Positions 9,057 to 33,360 of a DNA stretch of 43,513 nucleotides are shown piece by piece; the first letter of the stretch is position 1; every line of letters starts with the position of its first letter. The notes under the pieces are model-generated. The model worked only from the letters and a program-made list of their open reading frames with translations. It did no database searches and had not been told where the DNA came from. The stretch is from Gemmatimonadota bacterium (GTDB lineage: Bacteria; Gemmatimonadota; Gemmatimonadetes; Gemmatimonadales; Gemmatimonadaceae): contig JAJPIS010000041.1 of NCBI GenBank assembly GCA_021324635.1, positions 1 to 43,513 on the forward strand, given 5' to 3'. The position numbers were made by a program, and so were the translations under genes.

Positions 9057-9128
9057 GACGGTCCCTCGGCGCCGCGTCGGAGCCGGCGGCGTCGCGGTTG
9101 GGGTAGCACCAGATGAGGGTCTGGCCCG

Positions 9129-9157
9129 ATATTCTTCCTCGCACCACGCGTTGTCAA
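9129..9157 (-). promoter_or_regulatory. Candidate promoter of the sdhCAB operon
   Basis: On the minus strand a perfect TTGACA (9152-9157) is followed after 17 bases by GAATAT (9129-9134), a weak -10. Transcription would start near 9122 and give a leader of about 65 bases before sdhC. The -35 box and spacing are good; the -10 is poor, so the call is tentative. Confidence 0.4.
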
Positions 9158-9181
9158 CCCGAAGAACCGCTTGCCTCTCCG

Positions 9182-12100
9182 ATGGCCGCGCCGCCCGCCG
9201 TAGATACCCGCCTGGCCCCGCCCCGCCTGAGCGAGGATCGCATCGCCGCGCTCCTGCGCGACCGGTATGGCGTGACCGGGACGCTTCGGCCGCTGCCCAG
9301 TGAGCGCGACCAGAACATCCACGTCCAGACATCCTCGGGCGCGGCGTACGTCCTCAAGATCTCGGCGGTCGCCGAGGACGAGCGCGTTCTCGAGTGCCAG
9401 GCCGCGGTGCTCGCACGACTCGCCGAGGCGGAGACCGGCTTCGCGTTTCCGACGGTCGTGCCCGCGGCGGGGGATGGGGCGTTGATCGGGTCGACGACCG
9501 GCGTCGACGGGGCTCGGCACCTCGTGCGGTTGCTCCGCTACGTCCCGGGTGTCCCGCTGGCGAGCGTGCGTCCCCACACCCCGGCCGTGCTGGCCCAGCT
9601 CGGCGCCATGCTCGGCGCGGTCAGCCGGGCGCTCGACGGGTTCACCCATCCGGCGGCGCACCGGGACCTTCGGTGGGATCTGCGCGTCGGCCGCCAGGTC
9701 ATCGCGCAGTGCGAGGAGACGGTGACGGACGCGGCGCGACTGGCGCGCATCCATCGGATCCTCGACGCGGCGGACCGAGCCGGTGTGGCGTTCGACACGC
9801 TCCGGACGAGCGTCGTCCACAACGACGCGAACGACTTCAACGTGCTGGTCTCGCCGCCGGACCCCGACGATCCCACGGTGCCGCGCCGCATCGTCGGGCT
9901 CGTGGACTTCGGCGACCTGGTGCACTCGTATACGGTGGGCGAAGTGGCGATCGCGGCCGCCTACGGAATGCTGGGGAAGCGGGATCCGCTCGCCGCCGCC
10001 GCATCGATCGTGGGCGGCTACCACGCGGTGTACCCCCTCCACGAGGCGGAGGTCGCGGCTATCGTGCCGCTCATCGGCCTGCGGCTCTGTACCAGCGCCG
10101 TCCTGAGCGCGCATCAGCGCGCGCAGGAGCCCGGCAATGACTACCTGTCGGTGAGCGAGGCGCCGGTGTGGGCGCTCCTGGCGCAGCTCGAGGAGCTGGA
10201 CCTGGGATTCGCGCACTGCCGACTGCGGGCCGCCTGTGGCATGGCCGCGCACCCGCGAACCGCCGCGGTCGTCGCCTGGCTCGCCGGGCAGGCACGTATC
10301 GGATCCGTGCTGCCGGAGGGCCTCGGCGCGGACGCCCGACGCCGGACGACGCTCGACCTCAGCGTCGGGAGCACGGACGCCGCCGTGCCCGTCGGTCGCG
10401 ACACGACCGAGGCATGGGCCGACGCGATCGCCGCTCGGCTGCGGTCGGCCGGGGCCGAGGTCGGCATCGGACGCTACGATGAAGCTCGGCGGTGGTACAC
10501 GGACGATCGGTACCGCATCCCGACCGATGCCGGCGACGAGTGGCGGACGGTCCATCTCGGTGTCGACCTGTTCGTCCCCCCGGGGACAGCCGTCCGCGCG
10601 CCGCTCGATGGCGTCGTCGCGAGCGTGCAGGACAACGACGCGCCGCTCGATTACGGCCCCACGGTCCTGCTCCGGCACGAGCTTCCGGACGGGTCGAGCG
10701 TCCACACGCTCTACGGGCACCTCGCTCGCGACGTCCTGACCCGGTGGCGAGCGGGAGACCCGGTGGAGCGCAGCGCGAACATCGGGACCGTCGGCGCGAC
10801 GGGCGAGAACGGCGGATGGGCGCCGCACCTCCACCTCCAGGTGATCGTCGATCCGCTAGGTCACGTCGGCGACTTTCCGGGCGTCGCCCGGCCGAGCGAA
10901 CGCGCGGCGTGGCTCGGTCTGTCCCCTGACCCGAACCTGATCCTCCGGTTTCCGGAAGGGTGTCGGGCTCCCACGCCGCCGACATCGGCGGCGCTGCTCC
11001 CGGCGCGGCGTCGGCAGATCGGCCCGTCATTGAGCATCGCGTATCGGGCGCCGCTCACGATCGTACGGGGCTGGATGCAGCACCTTTACGACCCGGACGG
11101 CCGAGCGTACCTCGACGTCGTGAACAACGTCGCGCATGTGGGACACAGCCACCCCGACGTCGTGGCGGCGCTCCACCGGCAGAGCGCCGTCCTGAACACG
11201 AACACGCGCTACCTGCATCCCGCCATCCTCGAGTACGCGGCGCGGCTGACGGCGCGGCTTCCGGCTCCGCTCCGCGTCTGCTATTTCGTGTGCAGCGGGA
11301 GCGAGGCGAACGAGCTTGCGCTGCGCCTCGCCCGGGCCCACACCCGGCGGCGCGACATGATCGTCGTCGATCACGCGTACCACGGCAACACGACCGCGCT
11401 GATCGAGCTGAGCCCGTACAAGTTCGATGGTCCGGGCGGCAGCGGCGCGTCGGCGTTCGTGCACAAGGTACTCCTGCCGGATCCGTATCGCGGGCCGTAC
11501 CGCGGCATGACCGTGGAGACCGGTCGGCGCTACGCGGCGGATGTGCAACGAGCGATCGACGACATCGAGCGGGCCGGGCGGCGTCCGGCCGCCTTCTTCG
11601 CCGAGAGCATCGTCAGTGGCGGCGGACAGATCGAGCCGCCGCCCGGATACCTCGCCGACGCGTATGCGCGGGTGCGCGCCGCGGGCGGGGTGTGCGTCGC
11701 GGACGAAGTCCAGATCGGGTTCGGGCGCCTCGGCACGCACTTCTGGGGATTCGAGACCCAGGGCGTGGTGCCGGACATCGTCACGATGGGCAAGCCGATC
11801 GGGAACGGGCACCCGCTGGGCGCGGTGGTGACGACGCCGGAGATCGCCGCGTCGTTCGACACCGGGATGGAGTACTTCAACACCTTCGGCGGCAACCCGG
11901 TCTCCTGCGCCGTCGGGCTGGCCGTGCTCGAGGTGATCGACCGGGAGGGTCTCCAGGCGCACGCCCGGGCCGTCGGCGACCACCTCCGGGCGGGGCTGCG
12001 CGGCCTCATGGCGCGCCACCCGCTCGTGGGCGATGTCCGCGGGCGCGGGCTCTTCCTCGGCCTCGAGCTGGTGCGTGATCGCGAGACCCTGGCGCCTGCC

Positions 12101-12271
12101 CCACGGCACGCCACGTACGTCGTCGAGCGGATGAAGGAATGTGGCATCCTGCTCAGCACCGAGGGTCCGCATCACACCGTCGTGAAGATGAAGCCGCCGC
12201 TCGCCGTCACTCGTGCCGACGCGGAGCGACTCGTCGAGCACCTCGACGCCATCCTGGCGGAGTTGGCGTAG
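9182..12271 (+). CDS. Three-domain fusion: APH-type kinase, M23 peptidase-like, class III aminotransferase
   Basis: This 1029-residue protein has three domains. Residues 20-330 form an aminoglycoside/choline-kinase-like phosphotransferase with HNDANDFN (H213, D215) and VDFGD (D242). Residues 430-590 resemble an M23 (LytM) peptidase, with H458 and D462 in HLGVD and the HLH pair at H549/H551. Residues 600-1029 are a PLP-dependent class III aminotransferase with [29 protein letters not shown] and Lys871 in TMGKPIG. The last domain is closest in character to the phospho-lyases of the AGXT2-like group (ethanolamine-phosphate or phosphohydroxylysine). The kinase may therefore phosphorylate a hydroxy-amine that the lyase then cleaves; this is inference. 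The ATG at 9182 is preferred to one at 9113. The protein lacks a signal peptide, so the M23 domain is probably not acting on periplasmic peptidoglycan. Confidence 0.88.
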
Positions 12272-20914: not shown

Positions 20915-22042
20915 GTGAGCGCGCCGGGCTGGCGGGCCGTATTATCCGTTCTCGTGGTCTGGGGCCGACTGGCGATGGCGCAGGTGCCGGAGGCTGGCCC
21001 GACCGTGCAGGTGACGAACGACTCGATTCATCGGGAGATCATTGTCGAGCTATCGCCACTCAGCCTCCCCGCCCACGCCTCGCACCATTCGGCCAAGCAA
21101 CCCCCACCGCGCGCCGTGGCACTCCCGCTGACCGGCTGGATCGAGGGGTACTCGGCCGAGGTGGTGGACTCGGCGGGCCATCCCATCCCGCGCGAGATCC
21201 TGCACCACCTCAATCTGATCGTGCCCGAACGGCGGGAGCTGTTCAGCACCATCATGCAGCGGATGGGCGCGGCCGGCGCGGAGACCCCACCGGTCGCGAT
21301 GCCGGCGGTCTTCGGCCATCCGGTCGTCGGCTATCCCGTGCACCGTGGGGACACGGTGCTGGTCGTGGCGATGTTGCACAACCCGACCGCCCGGAGCTAC
21401 GAGGGGGCCCGGCTTCGCGTGCGACTTCCCTATGCGACCGAGCGCACGTGGCCGCACCCGGTGTCGATCTTCCCCTTCTATCTCGATGTGATGCCGCCGG
21501 CCGGCGGTCATGCGTACCCGCTCCCGCCAGGCCATTCGGAGCGAAGCTGGGAGGGCCGGCCCGCCGTGCCCGGGCGGATCCTGGCGGTCGGCGGGCATCT
21601 GCACGAGTATGGGGTTGCGCTGCGGCTCGAGGACGTGACCGCCGGCCGCGTGCTCTGGCAGACCGCCCCGGTGACCAACGCGGCGGGGGAGATCGTGTCG
21701 ATCCCGACGCATTCCTTCTGGTGGCGGCTCGGACTCCCGATCCGGCCGGACCACACGTACCGCCTGACGGCCGTGTACGACAACCCGACCGGCAAGGCAA
21801 TCCCCGACGGGGCGATGGGAGCGCTCGGGGGTGTCTTTCTGCCGGACAACGTCGCCGCCTGGCCGGCCGTCGATCGGACGTCGGCCGAGTACCAGCGGGA
21901 CGTGCAGGTCACCTACGAGACCGGCATGGGCGACATGAACGACATGCAGGGCATGCACGACATGAGCGACATGAGCGACATGCGGAGCATGCACGACATG
22001 CCCGGCCCACTTTCCCCCAGCCGCACAGCCCAGACTCCGTGA
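20915..22042 (+). CDS. Secreted PHM-fold-like protein with Met-rich metal-binding tail
   Basis: This is a 375-residue protein. Residues 1-22 form a signal peptide (AVLSVLVVWGRLAMA, then QVPE). Two His motifs recall copper type II monooxygenases such as peptidylglycine hydroxylase: ILHHLNLI with H97/H98, and GGHLHEYG with H228/H230. The last 35 residues contain nine Met spaced every third residue (GMGDMNDMQGMHDM and onward, residues 338-364), with Asp and His between, like copper-handling tails. I infer a periplasmic copper-binding or copper-dependent protein; catalysis is not shown. A GTG start at 20915 fits the signal peptide; GTG at 20855 is an alternative. Its stop overlaps the spt start as GTGA, which ties it to sphingolipid synthesis. 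Confidence 0.72.
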   Translation: MSAPGWRAVLSVLVVWGRLAMAQVPEAGPTVQVTNDSIHREIIVELSPLSLPAHASHHSAKQPPPRAVALPLTGWIEGYSAEVVDSAGHPIPREILHHLNLIVPERRELFSTIMQRMGAAGAETPPVAMPAVFGHPVVGYPVHRGDTVLVVAMLHNPTARSYEGARLRVRLPYATERTWPHPVSIFPFYLDVMPPAGGHAYPLPPGHSERSWEGRPAVPGRILAVGGHLHEYGVALRLEDVTAGRVLWQTAPVTNAAGEIVSIPTHSFWWRLGLPIRPDHTYRLTAVYDNPTGKAIPDGAMGALGGVFLPDNVAAWPAVDRTSAEYQRDVQVTYETGMGDMNDMQGMHDMSDMSDMRSMHDMPGPLSPSRTAQTP

Positions 22043-23313
22043 AATCCAGCGCTCAGCACGCGTCCTCCCCAGCCTCCGCATTCCCGCGACCCCGAGCCGC
22101 GGACGAGGCAGGGCCCGGACCGGTCGCCCGCTCGACGGACCTCTTCGACAAGGCCCGCCAGTTCACCCGCCTGCGCGAGGTGCAGGCGATGGGGCTCTAT
22201 CCCTACTTCGTCCCCGTGCATGCGTCCGGGTCGACGGAGGTCGTGATCAATGGGAAGAGCGGGGTGATGGTCGGGTCCAACAACTATCTCGGACTCAGCC
22301 ACGACCCGCGGGTCGTGGCGGCTGCACAGCAGGCGATCGCGGACTACGGGACCGCGTGCACGGGAAGCCGGTTCCTGAACGGCAACACGGAGCTGCACGA
22401 GCGGATCGAGCATCGGCTCGCCCGGCTCACGGGCAAGGAGGCGGCACTCGTCTTCTCGACCGGCTTCCAGACGAACCTCGGGGTCATCTCGGCCCTCGTC
22501 GGGCGCGACGATGCGGTCTTCATCGACAAGCTCGATCACGCCAGCGTCGTCGACGGCTGCCGGCTGGCGGCCGGCGAGACGGTGCGGTTCCGGCACGGGG
22601 ACCTCGACGAGCTGGAGGCGAAGCTGCGTCACTCGCGCGCCGGCGGGAAGCTGATCGTCGTCGACGGGGTGTTCAGCATGGAAGGCGACATCGTCGACCT
22701 GCCGCGGATCGCGGAGCTGCGCGCCAAGTACGATGCCCGCCTGGCGGTCGACGACGCGCACGCGATCGGGGTGTTGGGTGCGACCGGCGCCGGCACCGCC
22801 GAGCACTTCGGCCTCACCGGTGAGGTCGACCTCATCATCGGGACCTTCAGCAAGTCGTTCGCGTCGATCGGGGGGTTCGTCGCCGCCGAGCAGGTCGTGA
22901 TCGACTACCTCAAGCACCACGCGCGGAGCCTGATCTTCAGCGCCTCGATGCCGCCGTCGGCGTGCGCGGCCGTCCTCGCCTGTATCGACATCCTCGAGCA
23001 GGAACCGGATCGGCGGTTGAACGTCTGGAAGAACGCGGCCCGCATGCAGGAGGGGCTCCAGTCGCTGGGCTTCGACACCGGGGGCAGCCAGACGCCGATC
23101 GTGCCGGTCGTGATCGGGGACGACCTGCTGACGTTCGAGTTCTGGCGCCAGCTGTACGACAACGGCGTCTTCGCCAACGCCGTGGTCGCGCCCGCCGTGC
23201 CGCCCCACGAGTCGCGGATTCGGACGTCCTACTCGGCGACGCACACGCCCGAGCAGCTGGATTTCGTGCTGGACGTCTTCGCGCGCGTTGGCAAAGGACT
23301 CGGCGTCATCTGA
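22039..23313 (+). CDS. spt: Serine palmitoyltransferase
   Basis: This 424-residue PLP enzyme of the alpha-oxoamine synthase family condenses serine with a fatty acyl thioester to make 3-ketosphinganine, the first step of sphingolipid synthesis. It shows NNYLGLSHDP, YGTACTGSRFLNG, His167 in LDHASVVDG, VDGVFSMEGD, VDDAHAIGVLG and Lys272 in GTFSKSFASIGGF. The block LKHHARSLIFSASMPPSA is like Bacteroidetes-type serine palmitoyltransferase and unlike KBL or BioF. The next two genes fit the ceramide pathway, which strengthens this call over 8-amino-7-oxononanoate synthase. The GTG at 22039 overlaps the previous stop (GTGA). About 30 poorly structured residues precede the domain. Confidence 0.87.
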   Translation: MKSSAQHASSPASAFPRPRAADEAGPGPVARSTDLFDKARQFTRLREVQAMGLYPYFVPVHASGSTEVVINGKSGVMVGSNNYLGLSHDPRVVAAAQQAIADYGTACTGSRFLNGNTELHERIEHRLARLTGKEAALVFSTGFQTNLGVISALVGRDDAVFIDKLDHASVVDGCRLAAGETVRFRHGDLDELEAKLRHSRAGGKLIVVDGVFSMEGDIVDLPRIAELRAKYDARLAVDDAHAIGVLGATGAGTAEHFGLTGEVDLIIGTFSKSFASIGGFVAAEQVVIDYLKHHARSLIFSASMPPSACAAVLACIDILEQEPDRRLNVWKNAARMQEGLQSLGFDTGGSQTPIVPVVIGDDLLTFEFWRQLYDNGVFANAVVAPAVPPHESRIRTSYSATHTPEQLDFVLDVFARVGKGLGVI

Positions 23314-23345
23314 CCCGGTGACGTCCGGAACGGCAGCCAGATCCC

Positions 23346-23350
23346 GGAGG
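23346..23350 (+). promoter_or_regulatory. Ribosome binding site that sets a CTG start
   Basis: GGAGG at 23346-23350 lies five bases before CTG at 23356. No ATG, GTG or TTG lies in frame between the spt stop and well inside the conserved domain, so this site decides the start of the acyltransferase gene. Confidence 0.6.
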
Positions 23351-23355
23351 ACCGG

Positions 23356-24483
23356 CTGATCGACGTCGCACCCGTCCGGAGCGGCCGCGATCGGCGCGCC
23401 TTCATCGAGCTCCCGTACCGCCTGTATCGCGGCGACCCGCTGTGGGTGCCTCCGCTGCGACGGGACGTCGCCGACCTGCTGAGCCCCCGGCATCCCTTCC
23501 ACGCCCATGCGGAGGTCGAGCTGTTCCTGGCCCGCGGCCCGGGAGGACGAGTCGTCGGCCGGATCGCCGCGGTGCGCAACGAGGCCCATCTCGCCCAGCA
23601 CCATGACGGTGCGGGCTTCTTCGGCTTCTTCGAGATGGAGCGGGATCCGGCCATCGCCCGCGCGCTCTTCGACGCGGCCGCGGCCTGGCTTGCGGCGCGC
23701 GGCCTCACGACCATGCGTGGCCCGGCCAGCTTCTCGGTGAACGAGGAGGTCGGACTGCTGGTCCGCGGCTTCGAGACACCGCCGGCCCTGATGATGCCAC
23801 ACAACCCGCCCTGGTACGCGGATGTCATCGAGGCGCACGGGTTCACGAAGGCGAAGGATCTGATCGCCTACTGGCACCCGACCTGTGATGTGCCGGCGCG
23901 CGTCGCCGTCGTGGCCGAGAAGCTGGCGGCGCGGTTTCAGATCACGATCCGCCCGCTCGACATGCGCGACTTCAAGGCCGAGGTGGGGCGGATCCGCGCC
24001 CTGTACAACGCCGGGTGGGAGGCGAACTGGGGGAACGTCCCCATGAGCGACGCCGAGTTCATGCACGTGGCGAAGCAGTTCAAGCCGATCGCCGTCCCCG
24101 AGATGGTGCTCTTCGCCTACGTGCGGGGTGAGCTGGCCGGCTTCGTGCTGGCCCTGCCGGACCTCAACGTCGCGCTCCGCCACATGAAGGGCCGCCTGCT
24201 GCCGTGGGGATGGGCAATCGGCCTCTGGCAGGGACGGCGGATCGACCGCGCCCGAGTGCTCACGCTTGGCGTGCTGCCGGCATATCGCCGCACGGGCGCC
24301 GCCGATCTGCTGTACATGCACCTGTTCAAGAACGCGTACGCCAAAGGCATCCGACACGGCGAGTCCGGCTGGATCCTCGAGGACAATGCCCTCATGCGCA
24401 CTGCCCTGGAGCGCATCGGGGGTGAGCCGTACAAGACCTACCGGCTGTACGATCGACCCATCACCCCGACAACTCCCCGCTGA
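23356..24483 (+). CDS. GNAT-like acyltransferase, probable bacterial ceramide synthase
   Basis: This protein of about 375 residues has an acyl-CoA N-acyltransferase (GNAT-like) fold. It has the typical start RAFIELPYRLYRGDPLWVPPL, then GPASFSVNEEVGLLVRGF, and late VLTLGVLPAYRRTGAADLLYMHL, which holds the CoA-binding region. Bacterial ceramide synthases described in Caulobacter belong to this broad type and acylate the amine of 3-ketosphinganine. Its position between spt and a reductase gene supports that role; the exact function is inference. The frame is the same as spt and is separated by its TGA. The best start is CTG at 23356 with a strong GGAGG; starting at the first ATG (23446) would remove about 30 conserved residues. 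Confidence 0.78.
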   Translation: MIDVAPVRSGRDRRAFIELPYRLYRGDPLWVPPLRRDVADLLSPRHPFHAHAEVELFLARGPGGRVVGRIAAVRNEAHLAQHHDGAGFFGFFEMERDPAIARALFDAAAAWLAARGLTTMRGPASFSVNEEVGLLVRGFETPPALMMPHNPPWYADVIEAHGFTKAKDLIAYWHPTCDVPARVAVVAEKLAARFQITIRPLDMRDFKAEVGRIRALYNAGWEANWGNVPMSDAEFMHVAKQFKPIAVPEMVLFAYVRGELAGFVLALPDLNVALRHMKGRLLPWGWAIGLWQGRRIDRARVLTLGVLPAYRRTGAADLLYMHLFKNAYAKGIRHGESGWILEDNALMRTALERIGGEPYKTYRLYDRPITPTTPR

Positions 24484-24519
24484 TCGCCCGGATCGAGAGC
24501 CGGGCGGGAGGGCGCGCGC

Positions 24520-25482
24520 ATGCGTGCACTGGTGACCGGGGCGAGCGGATTCGTCGGTGGGCACCTGGTCGAAGCGCTGGTGGCCGCCGGCGACGAGGTG
24601 CGATGCCTGATGCGGCCGCGGAGCGACCGTCAATGGCTGCCGGCCGCAGTGGAGCTCACCGCGGGGAGCATCGAGGACACGCCCTCGATCGAGCGGGCGG
24701 TGACCGGCGTCGATGTCGTCTACCATCTCGCGGCGGTGACGTCGACGGCCGACCCGGCGGACTACGACCGCGTGAACCGCGGCGGCGTCGTCCGCCTGCT
24801 CGAGGCGCTCGCGGCCCAGGCACCCCACGCGCGGCTCGTCTTCTGCTCGAGTCTCGCTGCGGGCGGCCCGGCCCGGGCCGGCCGGGCGCTGACCGAGGCT
24901 GACCCGCCGGCGCCGATCGGCCCGTACGGGGCGTCGAAAGCGGCGGCCGAGCGGGTGATCGAGGCCTCGGGTCGGAGCGCCGTGATCGTCCGGCCGCCCG
25001 CGGTGTACGGGCCGCGGGATCGGGACATCCTCGCGGCCTTCCGGCTCGCGACTCGTGGGCTGGCGATCCGCACCGGCCCGCCCGGGCAGCACCTGGCGCT
25101 GATCCACGTCCACGACCTGGCCCGCGCGCTCGCCCAGGCCGGGCGTACGCCGGGTGCAACGGGCGTGTACTACGTGAACGGCGGGAACTACGCCTGGGAG
25201 GAGATCACGGCCGCGATCGGCCGGGCGGTGGGGCGGCGGGTGCACACGGCAGCGCTGCCGCGGCTCGCCCTCTCGGCGGCCGCGCGGGGCGCGCGGGCGT
25301 GGGCGCGACTGACAGGGACGCGGCCACTGCTCACACCGGAGCGCGCGCTCGACCTGGTCCAGCCGGCGTGGACGTGCGACGATGCGCGCGCCCGCCGCGA
25401 GTTGGGGTACCAGCCCACCATCCCGCTGGAGCGCGGGACGCGGGAGACGGCGAGCTGGTATCGGGCGCGCGGGTGGATGTGA
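24520..25482 (+). CDS. NAD-dependent epimerase/reductase, probable ceramide reductase
   Basis: This 320-residue extended short-chain dehydrogenase begins MRALVTGASGFVGGHL (NAD-binding Rossmann motif). It has VVYHLAAVTS, the catalytic YGASK (Tyr and Lys) and VRPPAVYGPRDRD. In the bacterial ceramide pathway an enzyme of this type (CerR) reduces 3-oxo-ceramide after acylation. The position after spt and the acyltransferase fits that order. GGAGG eight bases before the ATG at 24520 supports the start. Other roles, such as a hopanoid or sugar epimerase, are possible if taken alone. Confidence 0.82.
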   Translation: MRALVTGASGFVGGHLVEALVAAGDEVRCLMRPRSDRQWLPAAVELTAGSIEDTPSIERAVTGVDVVYHLAAVTSTADPADYDRVNRGGVVRLLEALAAQAPHARLVFCSSLAAGGPARAGRALTEADPPAPIGPYGASKAAAERVIEASGRSAVIVRPPAVYGPRDRDILAAFRLATRGLAIRTGPPGQHLALIHVHDLARALAQAGRTPGATGVYYVNGGNYAWEEITAAIGRAVGRRVHTAALPRLALSAAARGARAWARLTGTRPLLTPERALDLVQPAWTCDDARARRELGYQPTIPLERGTRETASWYRARGWM

Positions 25483-25611: not shown

Positions 25612-26652
25612 TCAGCTCGCGCCGGCTGGCGAGACTCGGGCGGGGCGGTGCTTGTGGCGGCTCGAGACCCAGACGAAGGTGAGGCCGATCCCGATCCAGA
25701 TCAGCTCCCGGATCCGGCTCACGACGGCGGCGTAGACGCCGAGCGCGGGTGGAAGGCCGAGAATCCGATAGATGAGATAGAGCCCGCCCTCCCGAGACCC
25801 CAGCTCGAACGGGATGAAGATCATGAGAATGATCGCGAGCTGCGAGAAGGCGCCGATGACGAACGCCGTCGGGTAGCCGATGTGGAGACCCTCTCCCCGC
25901 GCGATCAGGTAGAACTCGACCATCGCGATCGCCCGGCCCACGACCTCGGCGGCGATCGCGGCGACGAGCCGGGGGCGCTCCCCATCCGTCAGCACGGCCA
26001 TCTGGGAGTCGATGTTCTCGAGCGTCGCCCGCACGCGCTCGAGTCGCGGGGCGATGCGGCGGATGAGCGGCAACCGGCGGACGGCACCGAGCGCCCGGAC
26101 GGCCAGCCCGCGGCGGAAGAGCGACAGCATGAACGCGATGCAGGCCGCCAGGATGACACCGACGAACGCCAGCGCGAGCCGGCTCACCCCGGTACCCGGT
26201 AGGACCACCCACGCGACCGGCACCGCGATCATCCAGAAGATGAGCTGGCCCAGAGTGTGGACGACCCGGAAGCTCACCACCGACGCCGCCGCGCGGTCGG
26301 TTCCGATCCACTCCGACGCCGACGCCAGCCGGAACGGCTCCCCGCCGAGCGCCACGAAGGGGGTCGCGTAGTTGATCGCGAAGCTGGCGACGCTGATCAC
26401 GTATGCCCGGAGCCCCGGGATGTTGGGGCGACTCCCGGCGCGGCCCCACCGGGCGGCGGTGGCGCCGATGAGCGCCCGCCAGGCGATCGTGTTGCTGACG
26501 TAGACGCATCCCCACACGCCGACGATCGCCGGGATGACCCACCCGGCGCGTCGGATGGTCGCGACGAGGCCGTGGAGCCCGGCCTGGGCGACGAGGATCG
26601 CGAAGAACACGAGCCCCGCCGCGAAGATCACGAGACGGACGCGACGGCTCAT
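25612..26652 (-). CDS. Flippase-like membrane protein (lysylphosphatidylglycerol synthase TM family)
   Basis: This is a 346-residue integral membrane protein with about eight helices, of the LPG synthase transmembrane family (AglD/MprF flippase domain), without any synthase domain. Typical pieces are SVASFAINYATPFVALGGEPFR and FIPFELGSREGGLYLIYR, the family blocks around conserved Gly and Glu residues. It is the last gene of a seven-gene operon, 13 bases after a Gfo/Idh/MocA gene, and faces the sphingolipid genes. It may move the finished lipid across the inner membrane; this is inference from family and context. The ATG at 26650-26652 is preferred to upstream open frame that shadows the neighbour. 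Confidence 0.8.
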   Translation of the reverse strand: MSRRVRLVIFAAGLVFFAILVAQAGLHGLVATIRRAGWVIPAIVGVWGCVYVSNTIAWRALIGATAARWGRAGSRPNIPGLRAYVISVASFAINYATPFVALGGEPFRLASASEWIGTDRAAASVVSFRVVHTLGQLIFWMIAVPVAWVVLPGTGVSRLALAFVGVILAACIAFMLSLFRRGLAVRALGAVRRLPLIRRIAPRLERVRATLENIDSQMAVLTDGERPRLVAAIAAEVVGRAIAMVEFYLIARGEGLHIGYPTAFVIGAFSQLAIILMIFIPFELGSREGGLYLIYRILGLPPALGVYAAVVSRIRELIWIGIGLTFVWVSSRHKHRPARVSPAGAS

Positions 26653-26665
26653 GACGGCGGAGCGA

Positions 26666-27745
26666 TCACTCGACGGGAACTCGGGTGCCGGCGCGGGCCG
26701 ACGCGTACGCCGCCTCGAGCACGGCGGCCGTCCGGCGGATGTCGGCCAGCGCGGCGGGGTCGGCGCCCCGGTCGAGCGCATCGGCGAAGGCGGCGAAGAG
26801 ATCCGCGAACCACCCGGGGTAGCGGCGCTTGTCCAGCTCGATCGTGAAGTCCAGCACTGTCGCCGCGCCGGCGGTCGGCTCGAGGCGGAGGATCCCGCCC
26901 TGCCAGTCGATGGCGCCGCGCTCGCCGATGAACCGGACGCGGTTCTCCCGATGCGTCGCCGCCCAGGTGAGCACGAGGGTCGCGAGGCGGCCTGGGAACT
27001 CGATCGTCAGTTGGGCCGTGTCCTCCACGCCGTAGTCCAGGTGCCGGAGCCGCCCAGTCCAGGCGCTGACGGCAGTCGGCGGGCCGCCGGCGGCGTCGAG
27101 CAGCGAGTAGAGCAGGTGTGTGCCGTGGTCGAGCAGGATCCCACCCGCGCTCTCGGCGGCCACCGTCCGCCAGGGACGGCCGCTGCGGTCGGCGCCGGCG
27201 TCGGCGGCCGGTCGATAGACGGCGAGCTCCGCCAGATGCCACCGTCCGATCGCGCCCTCGCGGAGCCAGCGGTGCATCTGCTGCCAGGCCGGGTTGTAGC
27301 GGTACTGGTGGCAGGGCACGACCAGCCGCCCGGCACGACCCGCGGCCTGGGCGATCGCCTCGGCGTCGGCACGAGTGACGGCGACCGGCTTCTCGCACAG
27401 CACGTGGTACCCGCGCCCGAGCGCCCACAGGGTGGCCGCCAGGTGCGTTCCCGTGGGCGTGCAGATGTCCACGAAGTCGACCGGCGCAAACGCCTCGAGG
27501 CCGTCCCAGTCGGCGACGACCGGGAGCGTGGCCCCCTCGCGCGCGCCGGGTGCCGGGTCGACGGCCGCCACGATCTCGACCCGATGACGGACCGCGCCGG
27601 ACGCCAGCGCGCCGGGGAGGTGCGCGGTCCGCGCCACTCCGCCGAAGCCGATCAGGGCGCCTCGATACGGCCGGCCCGACGCCGAGCGGGCGCCGACCGC
27701 CAGATCCGCCGCCGAGCTGGGAGGGGTGGTGTGCGTCTCAGTCAC
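26666..27745 (-). CDS. Gfo/Idh/MocA family oxidoreductase in the head-group operon
   Basis: This 359-residue NAD(P)-dependent dehydrogenase has ALIGFGGVARTAH for nucleotide binding, EKP at residues 118-120 with the catalytic Lys, and GGILLDHGTHLLY in the substrate domain, with the Asp and His used by inositol and sugar dehydrogenases. In this operon it may oxidise a hydroxyl of an inositol, glycerol or sugar-like unit so that the neighbouring aminotransferase can add an amine. Its GTG start (27743-27745) overlaps the end of the CDP-alcohol phosphatidyltransferase gene by eight bases. Confidence 0.85.
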   Translation of the reverse strand: MTETHTTPPSSAADLAVGARSASGRPYRGALIGFGGVARTAHLPGALASGAVRHRVEIVAAVDPAPGAREGATLPVVADWDGLEAFAPVDFVDICTPTGTHLAATLWALGRGYHVLCEKPVAVTRADAEAIAQAAGRAGRLVVPCHQYRYNPAWQQMHRWLREGAIGRWHLAELAVYRPAADAGADRSGRPWRTVAAESAGGILLDHGTHLLYSLLDAAGGPPTAVSAWTGRLRHLDYGVEDTAQLTIEFPGRLATLVLTWAATHRENRVRFIGERGAIDWQGGILRLEPTAGAATVLDFTIELDKRRYPGWFADLFAAFADALDRGADPAALADIRRTAAVLEAAYASARAGTRVPVE

Positions 27746-28724
27746 CGCCGACCGCGACGGCGGGAGGGGGGGACGCGGGGAGCATGCCCGGCTCCAACGC
27801 CCCGAGGACGCCGGTCGCGCGATGCTCCTGCGCGGCCACCAGCCAGAGCAGCACCAGGTTCATGGGGATCGCCGTGATCCACAGCAGCCCGGCCGGCCAT
27901 CCCCCGACGGCCGTCACGCCGAGCACGATGAAGCGCAGGTTCTGGCCAAGCAGCGCGCACGAGCGCACGACCGGTCTCACGCGGGACCGGTAGACGGCCG
28001 CGGCCGCCGGTGACATCCGGTCCGCGCGCCCTGCCCGGGCGAGAGCGACGGTCTGCGGGAAGAGCCGGGTCTGCTGCCGGCCGTACCCGCGGTAGATCGC
28101 GGCCGCCAGGCGTTTCGGCCAGGAGAGGCCCGGCTGGGCCGCGACGCCGTCGAGATCCAGCTCGCTGCCGTGCCCCACCCCCAGCGCGAGGTAGGCGTGT
28201 CGCACGAAGTCGATCGCGGTGCTCTGCGTCGAGTGGCTCAGCGCGGCGACCGCGAGGAGGGCCGTCGCCGCCGGCCAGCTCCAGCCGCCGACGAGCACCA
28301 GGCGGACCAGGAGGTGGAGCCCGAGGTTCACGAATCGCGCCGTGTCCGAGATCCCATCGAGCACGCGACCGAACCGCGTCGACGTGCCGCGCATCCGCGC
28401 GAGCTGCCCGTCGGCGCTGTCGAACAGATCGGAGACGATGAAGAGGGCGAATCCGGCGGCGTTCACCGCCGGGCTCCGATACACGAACAGGTGGCCGGCG
28501 GCGAGGCCGATCACGAGACTGATGAGCGTGACCTGATCCGGCGTCGCCCGCGTCGGGTAGAGCGCACGCGCGATCCGCGCCCCGATGGGCCGGAAGAAGA
28601 CGAGGTCGAGCCACTCCTCGACGTCGCTGCCTTTGGTCGCGAGCCCGCTCGGCGGCGCCGAGTGGACAGGATCGCGCCGATGCACTGCCCGCCAGGCACC
28701 AGTCGATGTGCCCGGACGCTTCAT
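27738..28724 (-). CDS. CDP-alcohol phosphatidyltransferase
   Basis: This 328-residue membrane enzyme joins a phospho-alcohol to a lipid or lipid-like acceptor using a CDP-activated substrate. The family signature D-x2-D-G-x2-A-R-x8-G-x3-D-x3-D is complete at residues 102-127 (DSADGQLAR, then G119, D123 and D127), so it should be active. About six membrane helices surround it. Family members make phosphatidyl-inositol, -glycerol, -serine or -choline, or di-inositol phosphate. Because a nucleotidyltransferase lies in the same operon, it may use a CDP-head group rather than CDP-diacylglycerol. The acceptor could be ceramide made next door. The ATG overlaps the previous stop as ATGA. Confidence 0.9.
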   Translation of the reverse strand: MKRPGTSTGAWRAVHRRDPVHSAPPSGLATKGSDVEEWLDLVFFRPIGARIARALYPTRATPDQVTLISLVIGLAAGHLFVYRSPAVNAAGFALFIVSDLFDSADGQLARMRGTSTRFGRVLDGISDTARFVNLGLHLLVRLVLVGGWSWPAATALLAVAALSHSTQSTAIDFVRHAYLALGVGHGSELDLDGVAAQPGLSWPKRLAAAIYRGYGRQQTRLFPQTVALARAGRADRMSPAAAAVYRSRVRPVVRSCALLGQNLRFIVLGVTAVGGWPAGLLWITAIPMNLVLLWLVAAQEHRATGVLGALEPGMLPASPPPAVAVGGD

Positions 28725-30127
28725 CCGATCCGCTCCGCGGCCTCGCGGAGGACACCCTTCATGGTCGCCAGGGCCTCCATCGCTTCGGCCTCGCGGATGA
28801 CGAGCGGCGGATTGATGCGCACTTCGGGGTTGTAGATCATGGCCAGCACCCCGCGCGCCAGCAAGGTGTCGAAGATCCAGCGCGTGGTCTCCTTCCCCAG
28901 GAGGCGTCGCGTCCCCGGGTGGACGAGATCCATCCCGATCATGAGGCCACGCCCGCGCACGTCGTCGACGATGGGAATCTCGCGCTCCCAGCTCTTCATC
29001 TCGGCCATCATGCGGGCGCCGACGACCCGGCTATGCTCGACCAGCCCTTCCTCGAGGATGGTCTCGATCGCGGCCCGGGCAGCCGCCGCAGCGAGCGGGT
29101 TGCCGCCATAGCTCGAGGAGCTGCCACTCGGGTTGGCCCAGGGCTTGGCGCTGGCCACCCCCTCGCGAACGACGACGCCGGTCATCGGGAAGCCGCCGCC
29201 GAACCCCTTCCCGATCGTCATGATGTCGGGAACGACGCCGTCGTGCTCGATCGCGAACATGGTTCCCGTGCGCCCGAACCCGGTCAGCATCTCGTCCGCG
29301 ATCAGCACCGCCCCCAGGCTGTCGGCGAGCGAGCGGAGGACGCGCAGGTAGCCCGGCGGCGGCACGACGTTTCCGGCGGTTCCCTGGATCGGCTCGACGA
29401 TGATGGCGGCGACGTCGTTCGTCGTCTCGAGCTCGATCTTCCGGCGCAGGAACTCGACACAGTGCCACTCGCACGACGGGAAGGTCTTGTCGAATGCACA
29501 GCGCGCGCAGGACGCGTACGGCGTGCTGTACGCGCCCGGCATGAGCGGGCCGAGCTGGTGCTTGAAGTTGGAGCCGAGGAGCGGCAGGACGCCGGCGGTC
29601 TTTCCGTGGAACCCGCCCCAGAACCCGATGACTTCGCTCTTGCCGGTGTACGCCTTGGCGAGGCGGAGCGCAGATTCCACCGCCTCCGCGCCACTGCTGT
29701 ACAGCTGCGTCCGCGTGAGATCGCCGGGCGTGATCTCGGCCATGAGCTTGACGAGCGCCGCCCGGTGCTCCGAGGTGAAGCTCCCGACGTGGATGCGCGC
29801 GATCTGCCGCTGGACCGCGGCCACGTACTTCGGGTGCGCGTACCCGAGGCTCGCGACCCCGACGCCGGCCAGGAGGTCGATGTACCGGCGGCCATCGACG
29901 TCGTACAGCAGGGCCCCCTCGCCCCGGTCGATGCACAGTCGGCTGAAGAGGGCGACGCTCTGCGTGCCCGGTGCGAGGTACTGGGCCTCCGACTCGAAGA
30001 GCGCGAGCGACCGTGGCCCCGCCGCCCTCGGCGGCGGCGCGGCGGCCGCCGGGGACGTGGGGGTGGGCGGAGTGGCGGACCGCGGGGAGGGGCGGGGCTC
30101 GGCGAGCGCCGTCGGGCGTTGCGTCAC
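28721..30127 (-). CDS. Class III PLP-dependent aminotransferase
   Basis: This is a 468-residue aminotransferase. It shows YDVDGRRYIDLLAGVGVASLGYAHP, SGAEAVESALRLAK, FWGGFHGKT, IVEPIQGTAGNVVPP, LIADEMLTGFGRTG and the PLP Lys in TIGKGFGGGFP. A Cys group CxxC-x8-CxxxC at residues 207-223 (C207, C210, C219, C223) follows PYAS, as in a subset of class III enzymes, and could bind a metal. The first 40 residues are Pro- and Ala-rich. In this operon it likely adds an amine to a keto intermediate made by the dehydrogenase. The GTG start overlaps the previous stop as GTGA. Substrate unknown. Confidence 0.88.
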   Translation of the reverse strand: MTQRPTALAEPRPSPRSATPPTPTSPAAAAPPPRAAGPRSLALFESEAQYLAPGTQSVALFSRLCIDRGEGALLYDVDGRRYIDLLAGVGVASLGYAHPKYVAAVQRQIARIHVGSFTSEHRAALVKLMAEITPGDLTRTQLYSSGAEAVESALRLAKAYTGKSEVIGFWGGFHGKTAGVLPLLGSNFKHQLGPLMPGAYSTPYASCARCAFDKTFPSCEWHCVEFLRRKIELETTNDVAAIIVEPIQGTAGNVVPPPGYLRVLRSLADSLGAVLIADEMLTGFGRTGTMFAIEHDGVVPDIMTIGKGFGGGFPMTGVVVREGVASAKPWANPSGSSSSYGGNPLAAAAARAAIETILEEGLVEHSRVVGARMMAEMKSWEREIPIVDDVRGRGLMIGMDLVHPGTRRLLGKETTRWIFDTLLARGVLAMIYNPEVRINPPLVIREAEAMEALATMKGVLREAAERIG

Positions 30128-31062
30128 GTCGGATGTCTCTGAAACGGCAGGGTGAACGCGCCCGGTCCCGGAACCGCACGGGCGGCCGCGATGGCGGAGG
30201 CGTAGGCGGCAATGTGCCGCGCCGCGTCGTCCCGGAACGGGGCGAAGCTCGGCCAGTCATTCAGGTCGATGAGCACCGGTTGGTCCGGTGCGGGCAGCGC
30301 CACATCGCCGCCGAACACGTCCAGCTTCAGCTCCCGCGCGGCGGCGAAGGCCAGCGCACGCAGGCGATCGTCGTCCACGGCCGGGCACGGGCCACCCGGC
30401 CCGGCGTCGGCGGCGTAGTAGCGGAAGAAGCTCCCGTCGGCGACCGCATAGAACTTGAGGACGGGCCCCGGCACGTGCTCCTGGAGAGCGACGCGGTCAA
30501 TGCCGCGTGCCGCGAACGCCGCGATCGCGTCACCGAGGTCGGCCCGATCCACCGAGACCACGTCCTCGGAGCGCTCGGCATGCACGTCGCCGCGCTTGAC
30601 CCACACCATCCGCCCGTCGGCGCCGAACCCGTCGAGCTCCGGCGCGCCGGACGTGGCGATGATCGCCGTCCGGGGGAAGGCGACGGCCCGCTGGGCGAGC
30701 GCCTGCACCAGTCGGTGGCGATGGCAGCCGAGGACGCTCGAGGGGCGGTTGACGATGGGGATCCCGCCGGTCTCGGTCGCCATCAGGCGCTCGGACGCGT
30801 CGGGCCCCTGGCACATGTTGAGCACCAGCGCGGCGCGCGCGAGCAGGTGGGCAGGAAGGGTCCCGCGGACGAGGTCCGTCTCCGACGCGCGGTCGATCTC
30901 CCAGCCATCGGCGACGAGCTGGGCGACGGTCGCATCCAGGATCGCCGTATCGTTGGCGCGGTGCTGGTTCGGCGAGTACGACGGCTGACGGTAGAGCGCG
31001 ACCCCGCACCGCGCCCGCATGCCGTCCGCCCGGTCCCGCGCCCGCTCGACGAGGGCGCTCAC
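30124..31062 (-). CDS. ATP-grasp fold enzyme, RimK/ITPK-like
   Basis: This 312-residue protein fits an ATP-grasp ligase or kinase. It has an N-terminal pre-grasp region (VALYRQPSYSPNQ), a Lys that can bind ATP in MVWVKRGDVHAE, QEHVPGPVLKFYAV as the second grasp strand, and LIDLNDWPSFAPFRD as the metal-binding motif near the end. That last block resembles the D-x-N-x-F-P region of inositol polyphosphate ITPK-type kinases as well as RimK ligases. It could phosphorylate a polyol or join an amino acid to an amine. The GTG start is coupled to the previous gene (GTGA). The assignment to a substrate is open. Confidence 0.68.
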   Translation of the reverse strand: MSALVERARDRADGMRARCGVALYRQPSYSPNQHRANDTAILDATVAQLVADGWEIDRASETDLVRGTLPAHLLARAALVLNMCQGPDASERLMATETGGIPIVNRPSSVLGCHRHRLVQALAQRAVAFPRTAIIATSGAPELDGFGADGRMVWVKRGDVHAERSEDVVSVDRADLGDAIAAFAARGIDRVALQEHVPGPVLKFYAVADGSFFRYYAADAGPGGPCPAVDDDRLRALAFAAARELKLDVFGGDVALPAPDQPVLIDLNDWPSFAPFRDDAARHIAAYASAIAAARAVPGPGAFTLPFQRHPT

Positions 31063-31766
31063 GAGGCCTCGTCCCCCAGCCACGCATTCGCGAGCTCGAG
31101 ATCCCGCCGGCGGTCGACGTCCACGATCCGCGCGACCTCCACCGTAGCGACCCGAGCACCGGCGTCCACGAGGCGGGCGAGGAATCCCCGCATCCGGGTC
31201 ACCCCGGCCTCCACGGCGTCCACCACCTCGGCCCGAGCCGCGCGCCCGAAGGCATACACGCCGCCGGTGACACACGGCGGACTGACAGGCTCCGAGCCCA
31301 GGCGGCGCACGTAGCCGACAGCGTCGCGCTCGACCCACAGCGGGCGCTCGTCGTCGACGAACGGGGTGACGGCCAGCACCGCATCGGCCCCCTCGGCGAG
31401 CAACGCCCGGGCCGACCCGTAGGTCGCGCCCCAATCGCTCGCCCGCATCACCGTGTCGACCATCGTGCAGAAGACGGGGCCCGGCGGCGTGGCGGCCAGC
31501 CCTTCGGCGAGCGTGTGCAGGGACGACGGGGTATGGCAGGACAGGATGCGGACGGCCGGGTCGAAGCCGTCCAGCGCGCGGACGGCCGGCGCGCGCACGG
31601 CGTCACGGACCATGCACGTGATGGTCGGGCACCCCAGCTGGTCGAGGATCTCGACGAGTCCACGGATCTGGGGACGGCCGGCGATGGTGACCGTCACCTT
31701 GGCGTCCTGGATGCCGTCCGCCGCGAGCCGCGATCCCTCGCCCCCGGCGAGGATCAGCCCGTGCAT
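31059..31766 (-). CDS. Sugar/polyol-phosphate nucleotidyltransferase
   Basis: This 235-residue NTP transferase has the canonical MHGLILAGGEGSRL start for nucleotide binding, a possible metal-site Asp in CTMVDTVM, and a C-terminal IVDVDRRRDLELANAWL as in MobA/IspD/sugar nucleotidyltransferases. It would form an NDP-activated sugar, polyol or amino-alcohol. With the CDP-alcohol phosphatidyltransferase in the same operon, CDP-activation of the head group is the simplest idea, as in CDP-inositol pathways of archaea and thermophiles. The ATG at 31764-31766 lies 13 bases inside the end of the HAD gene. Confidence 0.82.
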   Translation of the reverse strand: MHGLILAGGEGSRLAADGIQDAKVTVTIAGRPQIRGLVEILDQLGCPTITCMVRDAVRAPAVRALDGFDPAVRILSCHTPSSLHTLAEGLAATPPGPVFCTMVDTVMRASDWGATYGSARALLAEGADAVLAVTPFVDDERPLWVERDAVGYVRRLGSEPVSPPCVTGGVYAFGRAARAEVVDAVEAGVTRMRGFLARLVDAGARVATVEVARIVDVDRRRDLELANAWLGDEAS

Positions 31767-32548
31767 TGCGACACCAGGGGCGCCCCGCCAGCGAGGGGCG
31801 CCAGCACGGCCGGAAGCTCGGCAAGGGATGCGATGCGAGCCGTCGGCGCGCAACCCGGCGGAGCCGTGCGGACCGCTGGCGCGAGCCACACGGCTCGCAT
31901 CCCGAGTCCCAGGGCCGGTCGGATATCCGCTTCGGGATTGTCTCCGATCATCCAGGCGCGGCTCGCCGGGACGTCGAGGGCAGCCAAGGTGTGCCGAAAC
32001 GCGCGGCGATCGGGCTTGGAGACGCCGAGAACGGCCGAGTCGGTGACCACGTCGAACAGGTGCGCCAGCTCCAGCTCGTCCAGACAGACCGCCAGGTTTC
32101 CGGTGAAATTCGAGACGACCGCGAGGCGATGCGACCGGCGGAGCCCCTCCAGCACACTCCGGTTCCGAGCGATCGTCCGCACGCTGTCCGCGTGCACGGC
32201 ACCGGCGACCGCACCCGCGTCGATTGCCGTGCCATCCGGCAGCAGCCGGCACAGGATCCCCGCCTGCGCCTCCATCATCGCCCGGAGGCCCAGTCGTGCG
32301 ACGCCGTCGAGTGCCTCGAGCTGTCTATCGGATGCCCGAAAGATCGGCTCGAACGCCTCGGCGTCGAGCCGGCCTCCCAAACGCGCATACGCGCCGTGGA
32401 AACGGAGGCTCCACCGCACGCCATCGGCGTCGAGCGTACCGCCGAAGTCGAACAACAGCGCACCGCGAGAGTCCCTCGCGAGCTCGTCAACCGCATCGTC
32501 CAGGACCGCTCCGGGCAAGCACACCGTACTGTATCGCGACCGTAACAT
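31754..32548 (-). CDS. HAD-superfamily hydrolase
   Basis: This 264-residue HAD protein has motif I LLFDFGGTLD, with the nucleophile at Asp34 and Gly at the usual general-acid position. Motif II lies in VVSNFTGN, motif III Lys in SKPDRRAF and motif IV in MIGDNPEADI. The missing second Asp is known in dehalogenase-like and other HAD groups, so phosphatase activity is not certain. It is the first gene of the seven-gene operon and might remove a phosphate from a precursor. The start is uncertain: ATG at 32548 is used, ATG at 32584 is in frame, and GTG at 32524 is possible. Confidence 0.8.
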   Translation of the reverse strand: MLRSRYSTVCLPGAVLDDAVDELARDSRGALLFDFGGTLDADGVRWSLRFHGAYARLGGRLDAEAFEPIFRASDRQLEALDGVARLGLRAMMEAQAGILCRLLPDGTAIDAGAVAGAVHADSVRTIARNRSVLEGLRRSHRLAVVSNFTGNLAVCLDELELAHLFDVVTDSAVLGVSKPDRRAFRHTLAALDVPASRAWMIGDNPEADIRPALGLGMRAVWLAPAVRTAPPGCAPTARIASLAELPAVLAPLAGGAPLVSQCTG

Positions 32549-32776
32549 CTGGGCAAGCGTCGATGTGGCGCAGGTATAGCCCATCTGCCCCCAGGAACGG
32601 ACGATCCCGCCGCCGGTGCGCGCGTGTGCCGTGCGCGCCCGGCGGCCCCGGCATCGCGCCCCTCGTTGCGGGTCCCGGTGGCGGCGCGCCGACGGGCCCA
32701 CGTCCCCGCGTGGCCACGTCCCACGCGCCAGGGTGCCACGACGGCATCATGGCCCGACCCCGTCGTTGCTGTTTCC

Positions 32777-32815
32777 GGTACCAGGGGCAATCGCGTCGCG
32801 ATTGCCCCTGGTACC
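32777..32815. repeat. Perfect 19-bp palindrome, family A copy 2
   Basis: The arm GGTACCAGGGGCAATCGCG (32777-32795), a T, and its exact reverse complement (32797-32815). The next 45 bases, including CCGTTCCGTTG and GGCCGCGGG, are nearly the same after the copy at 33158, so the repeated unit is longer than the palindrome. Confidence 0.85.
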
Positions 32816-32860
32816 ATCCAAATAATCCCGTTCCGTTGGTGGCCGCGGGGCGCGGGGGAC

Positions 32861-33012
32861 GCGAAATGCCGCCCCGGCATTGGTGTGCGATGCGGATCGC
32901 GGGCGGCATGAATGCCGGGCCGGTCATCCGTGCAGATGCGAATCGCGGGCGGCATGAATGCCGGCCCGGCATCGGTGCGGGATGCGAATCGCGGGCGGCA
33001 TGAATGCCGCCC
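32861..33012. repeat. 46-bp tandem repeat array with internal palindrome
   Basis: Units start with GGGCGGCATGAATGCCG at 32901, 32947 and 32993, exactly 46 bases apart, after a partial unit from 32861. Each unit also contains GATGCG(A/G)ATCGC. The last copy ends as the palindrome GGGCGGCAT-GA-ATGCCGCCC (32993-33012). Copies differ at a few bases. Confidence 0.85.
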
Positions 33013-33157
33013 CTACGGTCCGCGCACGTTCCCGTGCGCCCGCGACGACACCATCATCCCGCCCGTCGTTCCCGGGGCCGCGGGTATCCACGCCCCCAAC
33101 ACGCGCGCCCGCACCGCCACGACGGGCCCACCATCGCGCCCGGTCGGTGCCGGTCCC

Positions 33158-33196
33158 GGTACCAGGCGCAATCGCGTCGCGATTGCCCCTGGTACC
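33158..33196. repeat. 19-bp palindrome, family A copy 3, one mismatch
   Basis: The arm GGTACCAGGCGCAATCGCG (33158-33176), a T, and a right arm (33178-33196) identical to that of copy 2. One arm position differs, so the stem has a single mismatch. The flank ATCCAAACAAACCCGTTCCG matches copy 2 closely. Confidence 0.85.
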
Positions 33197-33253
33197 ATCC
33201 AAACAAACCCGTTCCGTTGATGGCCGCGGGACGCGGGCCGTTCCGCCAACGGC

Positions 33254-33273
33254 GGGCGGCATGAATGCCGCCC
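33254..33273. repeat. Isolated copy of the GGGCGGCAT palindrome, family B
   Basis: GGGCGGCAT-GA-ATGCCGCCC at 33254-33273 equals the palindrome of the 46-bp array but stands alone, about 240 bases downstream. This shows the palindrome itself is the unit that spreads. Confidence 0.75.
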
Positions 33274-33360
33274 GTACCGCCCTTGCGCCTCCCGGGCGGG
33301 GGATGAGGATTCGGTGCACACCGCGCAATGGCTTGCCGACCTGGCCGGAGGCTGCACCCG

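Follow-up and report, generated by a model that had tools for sequence, protein, structure and literature searches.

The stretch of DNA analyzed in this work, hereafter the window, comprises 43,513 nucleotides from a Gemmatimonadota soil bacterium (GenBank assembly GCA_021324635.1, contig JAJPIS010000041.1, positions 1 to 43,513; source genome of 4.09 Mb in 127 contigs). Our subject is a compact operon of seven minus-strand genes at positions 25612-32548, which we propose to direct the synthesis of an amino-inositol phospholipid. Its genes are:

31754..32548, minus strand: HAD-superfamily phosphatase (HAD; Pfam PF00702/PF13419), with a DxGGT motif invariant in homologues; substrate presumed.
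31059..31766, minus strand: MobA-like nucleotidyltransferase (NTP; PF12804), candidate CTP:(amino)inositol-phosphate cytidylyltransferase.
30124..31020, minus strand: ATP-grasp enzyme, recognized by profile search and a confident structural model, candidate (amino)inositol kinase.
28721..30127, minus strand: PLP-dependent class III aminotransferase (AT3; PF00202, E 8e-96), with an invariant PLP lysine (K307), proposed to turn an inosose into an inosamine.
27738..28724, minus strand: CDP-alcohol phosphatidyltransferase (PF01066), proposed to transfer phospho-inosamine from CDP to ceramide or diacylglycerol.
26666..27745, minus strand: Gfo/Idh/MocA dehydrogenase (GFO; PF01408, PF22725), proposed to turn inositol into keto-inositol.
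25612..26652, minus strand: flippase-like LPG_synthase_TM membrane protein (FLP; PF03706, E 1e-21), proposed to translocate the lipid.

The preliminary description of this DNA had reported seven tightly packed genes, and this was borne out: all the open reading frames are present and the junctions, read from HAD to FLP, measure -13, +38, -4, -4, -8 and +13 bp. Pfam assigns a family to six of the seven proteins; the ATP-grasp protein matched no Pfam family at E 1e-3, and NCBIfam was likewise empty. The start codon of the CDP-alcohol transferase gene is uncertain, the conserved part beginning near 28619; its signature motif, which had been described as complete, is indeed whole in the window (D-x2-DG-x2-AR-x8-G-x3-D-x3-D) and is invariant in 68 homologues. 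No tRNA gene was found in the window.

The search for the same gene order and its taxonomic spread, which had been put forward as a check, covered one genome per species in a few phyla. The genes are kept together in relatives rather than scattered: the order HAD-NTP-ATPgrasp-AT3-CDP-GFO-FLP is identical in 29 Gemmatimonadota loci, counting the window, these being all the fetched loci uncut by a contig end; at one of them (L048) the last gene lies 2 kb further on, and at another (L052) it is split over two reading frames. Across these loci the proteins are about 35 to 88% identical to those of the window. Clear orthologues of the CDP-alcohol transferase occur in 12 of 59 relatives, and close relatives of it (66-67% identity) are encoded in the Gemmatimonadota metagenome-assembled genomes (MAGs) PMAE01000068.1 and JAJPIM010000021.1. 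A profile of the ATP-grasp protein matches 38 of the 395 genomes of the phylum, all of them within the order of the window's organism and spread over three families. Since 29 loci keep all seven genes in the same order, the set is more than a chance grouping.

The identity of the head group is best approached from a second phylum. A scan of named genomes found Bacteroidota loci, at about 33% identity, in which the NTP, ATP-grasp, CDP transferase and HAD genes lie together; at two of them (L042 and L043) these four are followed by a gene for myo-inositol-1-phosphate synthase (MIPS). The window's NTP, CDP-alcohol transferase and HAD proteins are homologous to those of the Bacteroidota clusters L041-L043, and all three are present in every complete locus. 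The ATP-grasp profile matches 12 of 296 Bacteroidota genomes, and 28 of 164 within one order. At 24 Bacteroidota loci the gene order is NTP-(MlaE-MlaF-MlaD)-ATPgrasp(one or two)-AT3-CDP-GFO-FLP-HAD-MIPS, with the Mla genes missing from some; MIPS belongs to the operon at 21 of these 24 loci, all of which carry AT3 and GFO, and was not detected at the other three, while over all Bacteroidota loci it does so at 30 of 37. Within one Bacteroidota order all seven families thus sit in one operon together with MIPS, which makes inositol the very probable polyol. The preliminary description had left the substrate as a polyol or sugar, of which the polyol stands and can be narrowed in this way.

MIPS of the window's own genome lies on another contig (C55), away from the operon, and the gene occurs in 56 of 60 genomes of the Gemmatimonadota order, with or without the seven-gene operon; the operon would thus not be needed for making basic inositol phosphate. 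On the same count we rejected ordinary phosphatidylinositol synthesis as the function of the operon. The position of MIPS outside the Gemmatimonadota operon, together with a between-phyla protein identity of about 30% for most parts, would also suit an amino sugar or a polyol other than inositol as head group, the enzymes having been retargeted after the split from the Bacteroidota operons; we regard this as unlikely, as both phyla have the same seven families, the paired aminotransferase and dehydrogenase and shared active-site residues, and as MIPS is present in the own genome and nearly throughout the order.

The aminotransferase and the dehydrogenase behave as a single cassette. Over both phyla 54 loci carry both genes, 14 carry neither (one of these, L143, being a second copy of L042) and 0 carry one alone; the loci lacking both include 13 in Bacteroidota. 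On the tree of the CDP transferase the state of the cassette switches at least 4 times within Bacteroidota, and both genes move together each time. That the two come and go jointly in an inositol-lipid operon is best explained as oxidation of inositol followed by its amination to inosamine. Orthology of the cassette genes across the phyla appears good: the Gemmatimonadota GFO profile gives the Bacteroidota dehydrogenases 220-254 bits, vs 109 for the highest-scoring dehydrogenase with a solved structure, and the Bacteroidota aminotransferases are 53-60% identical to that of the window, the best own-genome paralogue found reaching 38%. These identities and profile scores were used in place of AT3 and GFO paralogue trees, which were set aside because several "paralogue" rows were overlapping copies of operon genes. 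The best NCBIfam match of GFO is inositol 2-dehydrogenase (TIGR04380, E 9e-19), at 67.5 bits and below the 355-bit cut-off; its catalytic residues K119 and D206-x3-H210 are present and invariant in homologues. A precedent for such chemistry is found in the synthesis of rhizopine and scyllo-inosamine, where an inositol dehydrogenase (IolG or IdhA) and the glutamate-dependent aminotransferase MosB act in succession, IolG and MosB turning myo-inositol into scyllo-inosamine in vitro (PMC6668481). The likeness is drawn at the level of activity, and the product there is a free small molecule, with no lipid involved (PMC6668481).

For the nucleotidyltransferase the AF2 model (pLDDT 95.8) has as structural neighbours PntC-AEPT (Z 25.4), IPCT-DIPPS (4mnd, Z 24.7) and the T. 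maritima inositol-1-P CTP transferase (4jd0, Z 24.5), and full-length profile matches were obtained with 2xme and 4mnd. The CDP-alcohol transferase finds its best NCBIfam matches, all below cut-off, in archaetidylinositol-phosphate synthase, IPCT/DIPPS and PIP synthase, and its profile matches AF2299 (4o6m, E 7e-18) and PIPS. A phosphonolipid pathway, to which PntC-AEPT as nearest structural neighbour would point, was considered and rejected, the operon having no phosphoenolpyruvate mutase-type gene and the Bacteroidota operons having MIPS as partner. The IPCT/DIPPS system of hyperthermophiles likewise combines a CTP:inositol-1-phosphate cytidylyltransferase with a CDP-alcohol transferase; its product is a soluble di-inositol phosphate, with no amination and no sphingolipid genes. 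Resemblance to this pair raises the option of a soluble CDP-inositol-derived compound (di-inositol phosphate-like) or a cell-surface glycan unit instead of a membrane lipid. We hold such a product to be very unlikely, given the flippase-like gene in the operon, the sphingolipid-type genes that adjoin it, the relatives that make inositol lipids (PMC9246714), and the genes for the lipid transport proteins MlaE/F/D inside most of the Bacteroidota operons carrying AT3 and GFO (for example L137:6986-9462), which suggest a dedicated export of lipid towards the outer membrane.

The ATP-grasp protein would supply the phosphate. Its profile finds ITPK4 (inositol 1,3,4-trisphosphate 5/6-kinase 4; 7pup, E 7e-6) as best PDB match, followed by PsnB, RimK and ITPK1, and the match to Pfam PF05770 is weak (E 0.09, obtained with one member of the family). 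Searches with the structural model (pLDDT 89.9) did not separate kinase from ligase folds. K189, D239, D252 and N254 are invariant in 71 homologues; in the profile alignments the K-F-Y and D-x-N of ITPK4 stand opposite R and E-x-N in RimK and PsnB, and K189 and D252-x-N254 of the family match the ITPK-type residues. The gene is kept also in clusters that have no aminotransferase. As the active-site residues lean to ITPK and the gene persists where no amine would be made, the protein is probably a kinase rather than a ligase. A ligase coupling an amino acid or another acid to the head group, through its amine or a hydroxyl, with the phosphate coming straight from inositol 3-phosphate, would agree with the nearest folds, those of the RimK and LysX amino-acid ligases, and with the profile matches to PsnB and RimK; it accords poorly with the equal conservation of the protein in clusters lacking the aminotransferase and with invariant residues that resemble ITPK and not RimK or PsnB, and we give it a minor share of the probability. 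The fusion of NTP transferase and ATP-grasp in one protein of a Tannerella MAG (L041:8259-9959) points to consecutive steps. Four Bacteroidota operons with AT3 and GFO (L132, L135, L137 and L139) have two ATP-grasp genes in tandem, which may serve two separate phosphorylations.

A lipid acceptor is suggested by the neighbouring genes of the window, in which a group of three on the plus strand (about 22039-25482) converges on the minus-strand operon:

22039..23313 (start approximate), plus strand: serine palmitoyltransferase-like (SPT) alpha-oxoamine synthase; best NCBIfam match SPT.
23446..24483, plus strand: GNAT-family protein (PF00583), candidate bCerS-like ceramide synthase.
24520..25482, plus strand: NAD-dependent epimerase/SDR (PF01370; HpnA-like in NCBIfam), candidate CerR-like ceramide reductase, a role given by context.

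The SPT-like protein scores 515 bits to NCBIfam SPT, above BioF and KBL and below the curated 640. The preliminary description had made no connection between these genes and the operon. In Caulobacter, Spt, bCerS and CerR form ceramide (PMC11087976), and the convergent trio shares its family make-up with spt-bcerS-cerR, a resemblance that makes ceramide the likelier acceptor than diacylglycerol. SPT and GNAT genes, mostly with a recognizable SDR, adjoin the operon at 14 of the 29 Gemmatimonadota loci. The GNAT gene occurs in 36 of 38 Gemmatimonadota genomes with the operon vs 174 of 357 others (Fisher p 6e-9, calculated without phylogenetic correction), and a homologue was found in 31 of 31 Bacteroidota genomes tested, two of them weakly. 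The Caulobacter ceramide phosphoglycerate genes (spt, bcerS, cerR, cpgABC and others) likewise place an SPT-acyltransferase-reductase trio and head-group genes in one region; the head group there is phosphoglycerate, its proposed synthesis starts from a ceramide kinase, and the enzymes are different (PMC11087976, PMC11324152).

The same pathway acting on diacylglycerol would give a phosphatidyl-inosamine, with the adjoining sphingolipid genes independent of it. In the proposal of Heaver et al. a related transferase uses diacylglycerol, which is afterwards exchanged for ceramide (PMC9246714). Such a swap could be performed by AUR1-like PAP2 genes: at ten related loci (L094-L100, L102-L104) one of these and a second, short CDP-alcohol transferase gene separate the CerR-like gene from the operon, and neither of the two was detected in the window. 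At about half of the loci, moreover, no sphingolipid genes directly adjoin the operon. Set against these points are the SPT-GNAT(-SDR) genes beside the operon at 14 loci and the strong co-occurrence of GNAT gene and operon, and we consider diacylglycerol a somewhat unlikely final acceptor.

Part of this gene set has been described before. Heaver et al. reported in 2022 a putative alternative inositol-lipid cluster of candidate genes in B. vulgatus and Prevotella, two of its bearers, B. vulgatus and P. veroralis, being producers of phosphoinositol dihydroceramide (PMC9246714). In that cluster an NTP transferase, a CDP-alcohol transferase and a HAD protein are encoded close to MIPS, and an LPG-synthase-like gene is found in the vicinity (PMC9246714). 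The NTP, ATP-grasp, CDP transferase and HAD genes of the window's operon, as a rule joined by the flippase-like gene, are distantly related to this cluster. The operon adds AT3 and GFO; its proteins are about 30% identical, and MIPS in Gemmatimonadota lies elsewhere. Neither the ATP-grasp protein nor an amino product is mentioned in that work (PMC9246714); the ATP-grasp gene is present, or fused, in Bacteroidota clusters homologous to the B. vulgatus/Prevotella type, and one-gene gaps in the locus tags, between NTP and transferase and between transferase and HAD, would, judged from the tags, fit ATP-grasp and flippase-like genes. As MIPS is not clustered with it, the window's operon is a relative and variant of the B. 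vulgatus-type cluster, not a plain member. The preliminary description knew of no named pathway with this exact set and called the operon undescribed-looking, which does not hold for the core of NTP, CDP transferase and HAD; what is new is the pairing with aminotransferase and dehydrogenase. The BT_1522-1526 genes of B. thetaiotaomicron also place inositol on a sphingolipid by means of a transferase with the CDP-alcohol motif; their route runs via PIP-DAG with a dedicated phosphatase, and no nucleotidyltransferase, ATP-grasp, aminotransferase or dehydrogenase is described there (PMC9246714). The literature searched yielded no paper on an inosamine or aminoinositol phospholipid.

Taken as a whole, the operon would make an amino-inositol (inosamine) phospholipid, probably with ceramide as acceptor in the source organism, a reading to which we assign a probability of about 0.6. 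Inositol 3-phosphate would be supplied by the synthase encoded on contig C55 and dephosphorylated by the HAD protein to inositol; the Gfo/Idh/MocA enzyme would oxidize free inositol to keto-inositol, which the class III aminotransferase would convert into inosamine. The ATP-grasp protein would then phosphorylate the inosamine, the nucleotidyltransferase would form CDP-inosamine, the CDP-alcohol transferase would place phospho-inosamine onto ceramide (or diacylglycerol), and the flippase-like protein would carry the product across the membrane. The scheme of oxidation, amination, phosphorylation, activation, lipid transfer and flipping had been anticipated in outline, and as a series of predicted steps it fits all the comparative evidence.

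Several points weigh against this reading. We infer the chemistry: what each enzyme acts on, in which order they act and which lipid receives the head group. The candidate bCerS and CerR assignments follow from gene order with SPT and from family type, not from likeness to characterized proteins, and about half of the loci have no such genes alongside. The location of MIPS outside the operon and its near universality make it non-discriminating within the Gemmatimonadota order. Among the eight nearest structures of the NTP model the inositol-type neighbours are tied with RmlA/GlmU types (thymidylyl-/uridylyltransferases), and the ATP-grasp model folds most like the RimK/LysX ligases (Z 22-20), the inositol kinases Asp1, PPIP5K2 and ITPK1 following at Z about 19. 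The sampling of species and phyla was narrow as well.

Two other features of the window were observed. Upstream of the operon, the intergenic stretch 32640-33300 holds a palindromic repeat array, in which a 39-bp palindrome has two copies, one perfect and one with a base change; GGGCGGCATGAATGCCGCCC, counted with at most 2 mismatches, has 575 copies in the genome vs 0 for its reversed control, and the array looks like a very abundant REP-type element. At 9113-12271 a 1052-aa fusion protein unites an aminoglycoside-phosphotransferase-like kinase, a peptidase M23 and a class III aminotransferase domain.

Tentatively, the operon may be responsible for a new class of bacterial membrane lipid, an inosamine phosphosphingolipid, made by an inositol-amination cassette joined to a CDP-inositol (Kennedy-type) route and an ATP-grasp inositol/inosamine kinase, and common to Gemmatimonadota and one Bacteroidota order. 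If so, many uncultured bacteria of two phyla would contain an amino-cyclitol lipid that has so far been unsought, a candidate for the unassigned aminolipids of environmental lipidomes. Lipid synthesis of the CDP-inositol type would extend to Gemmatimonadota, and the alternative inositol-lipid pathway, as yet unconfirmed, would gain an enzyme for its phosphorylation step.

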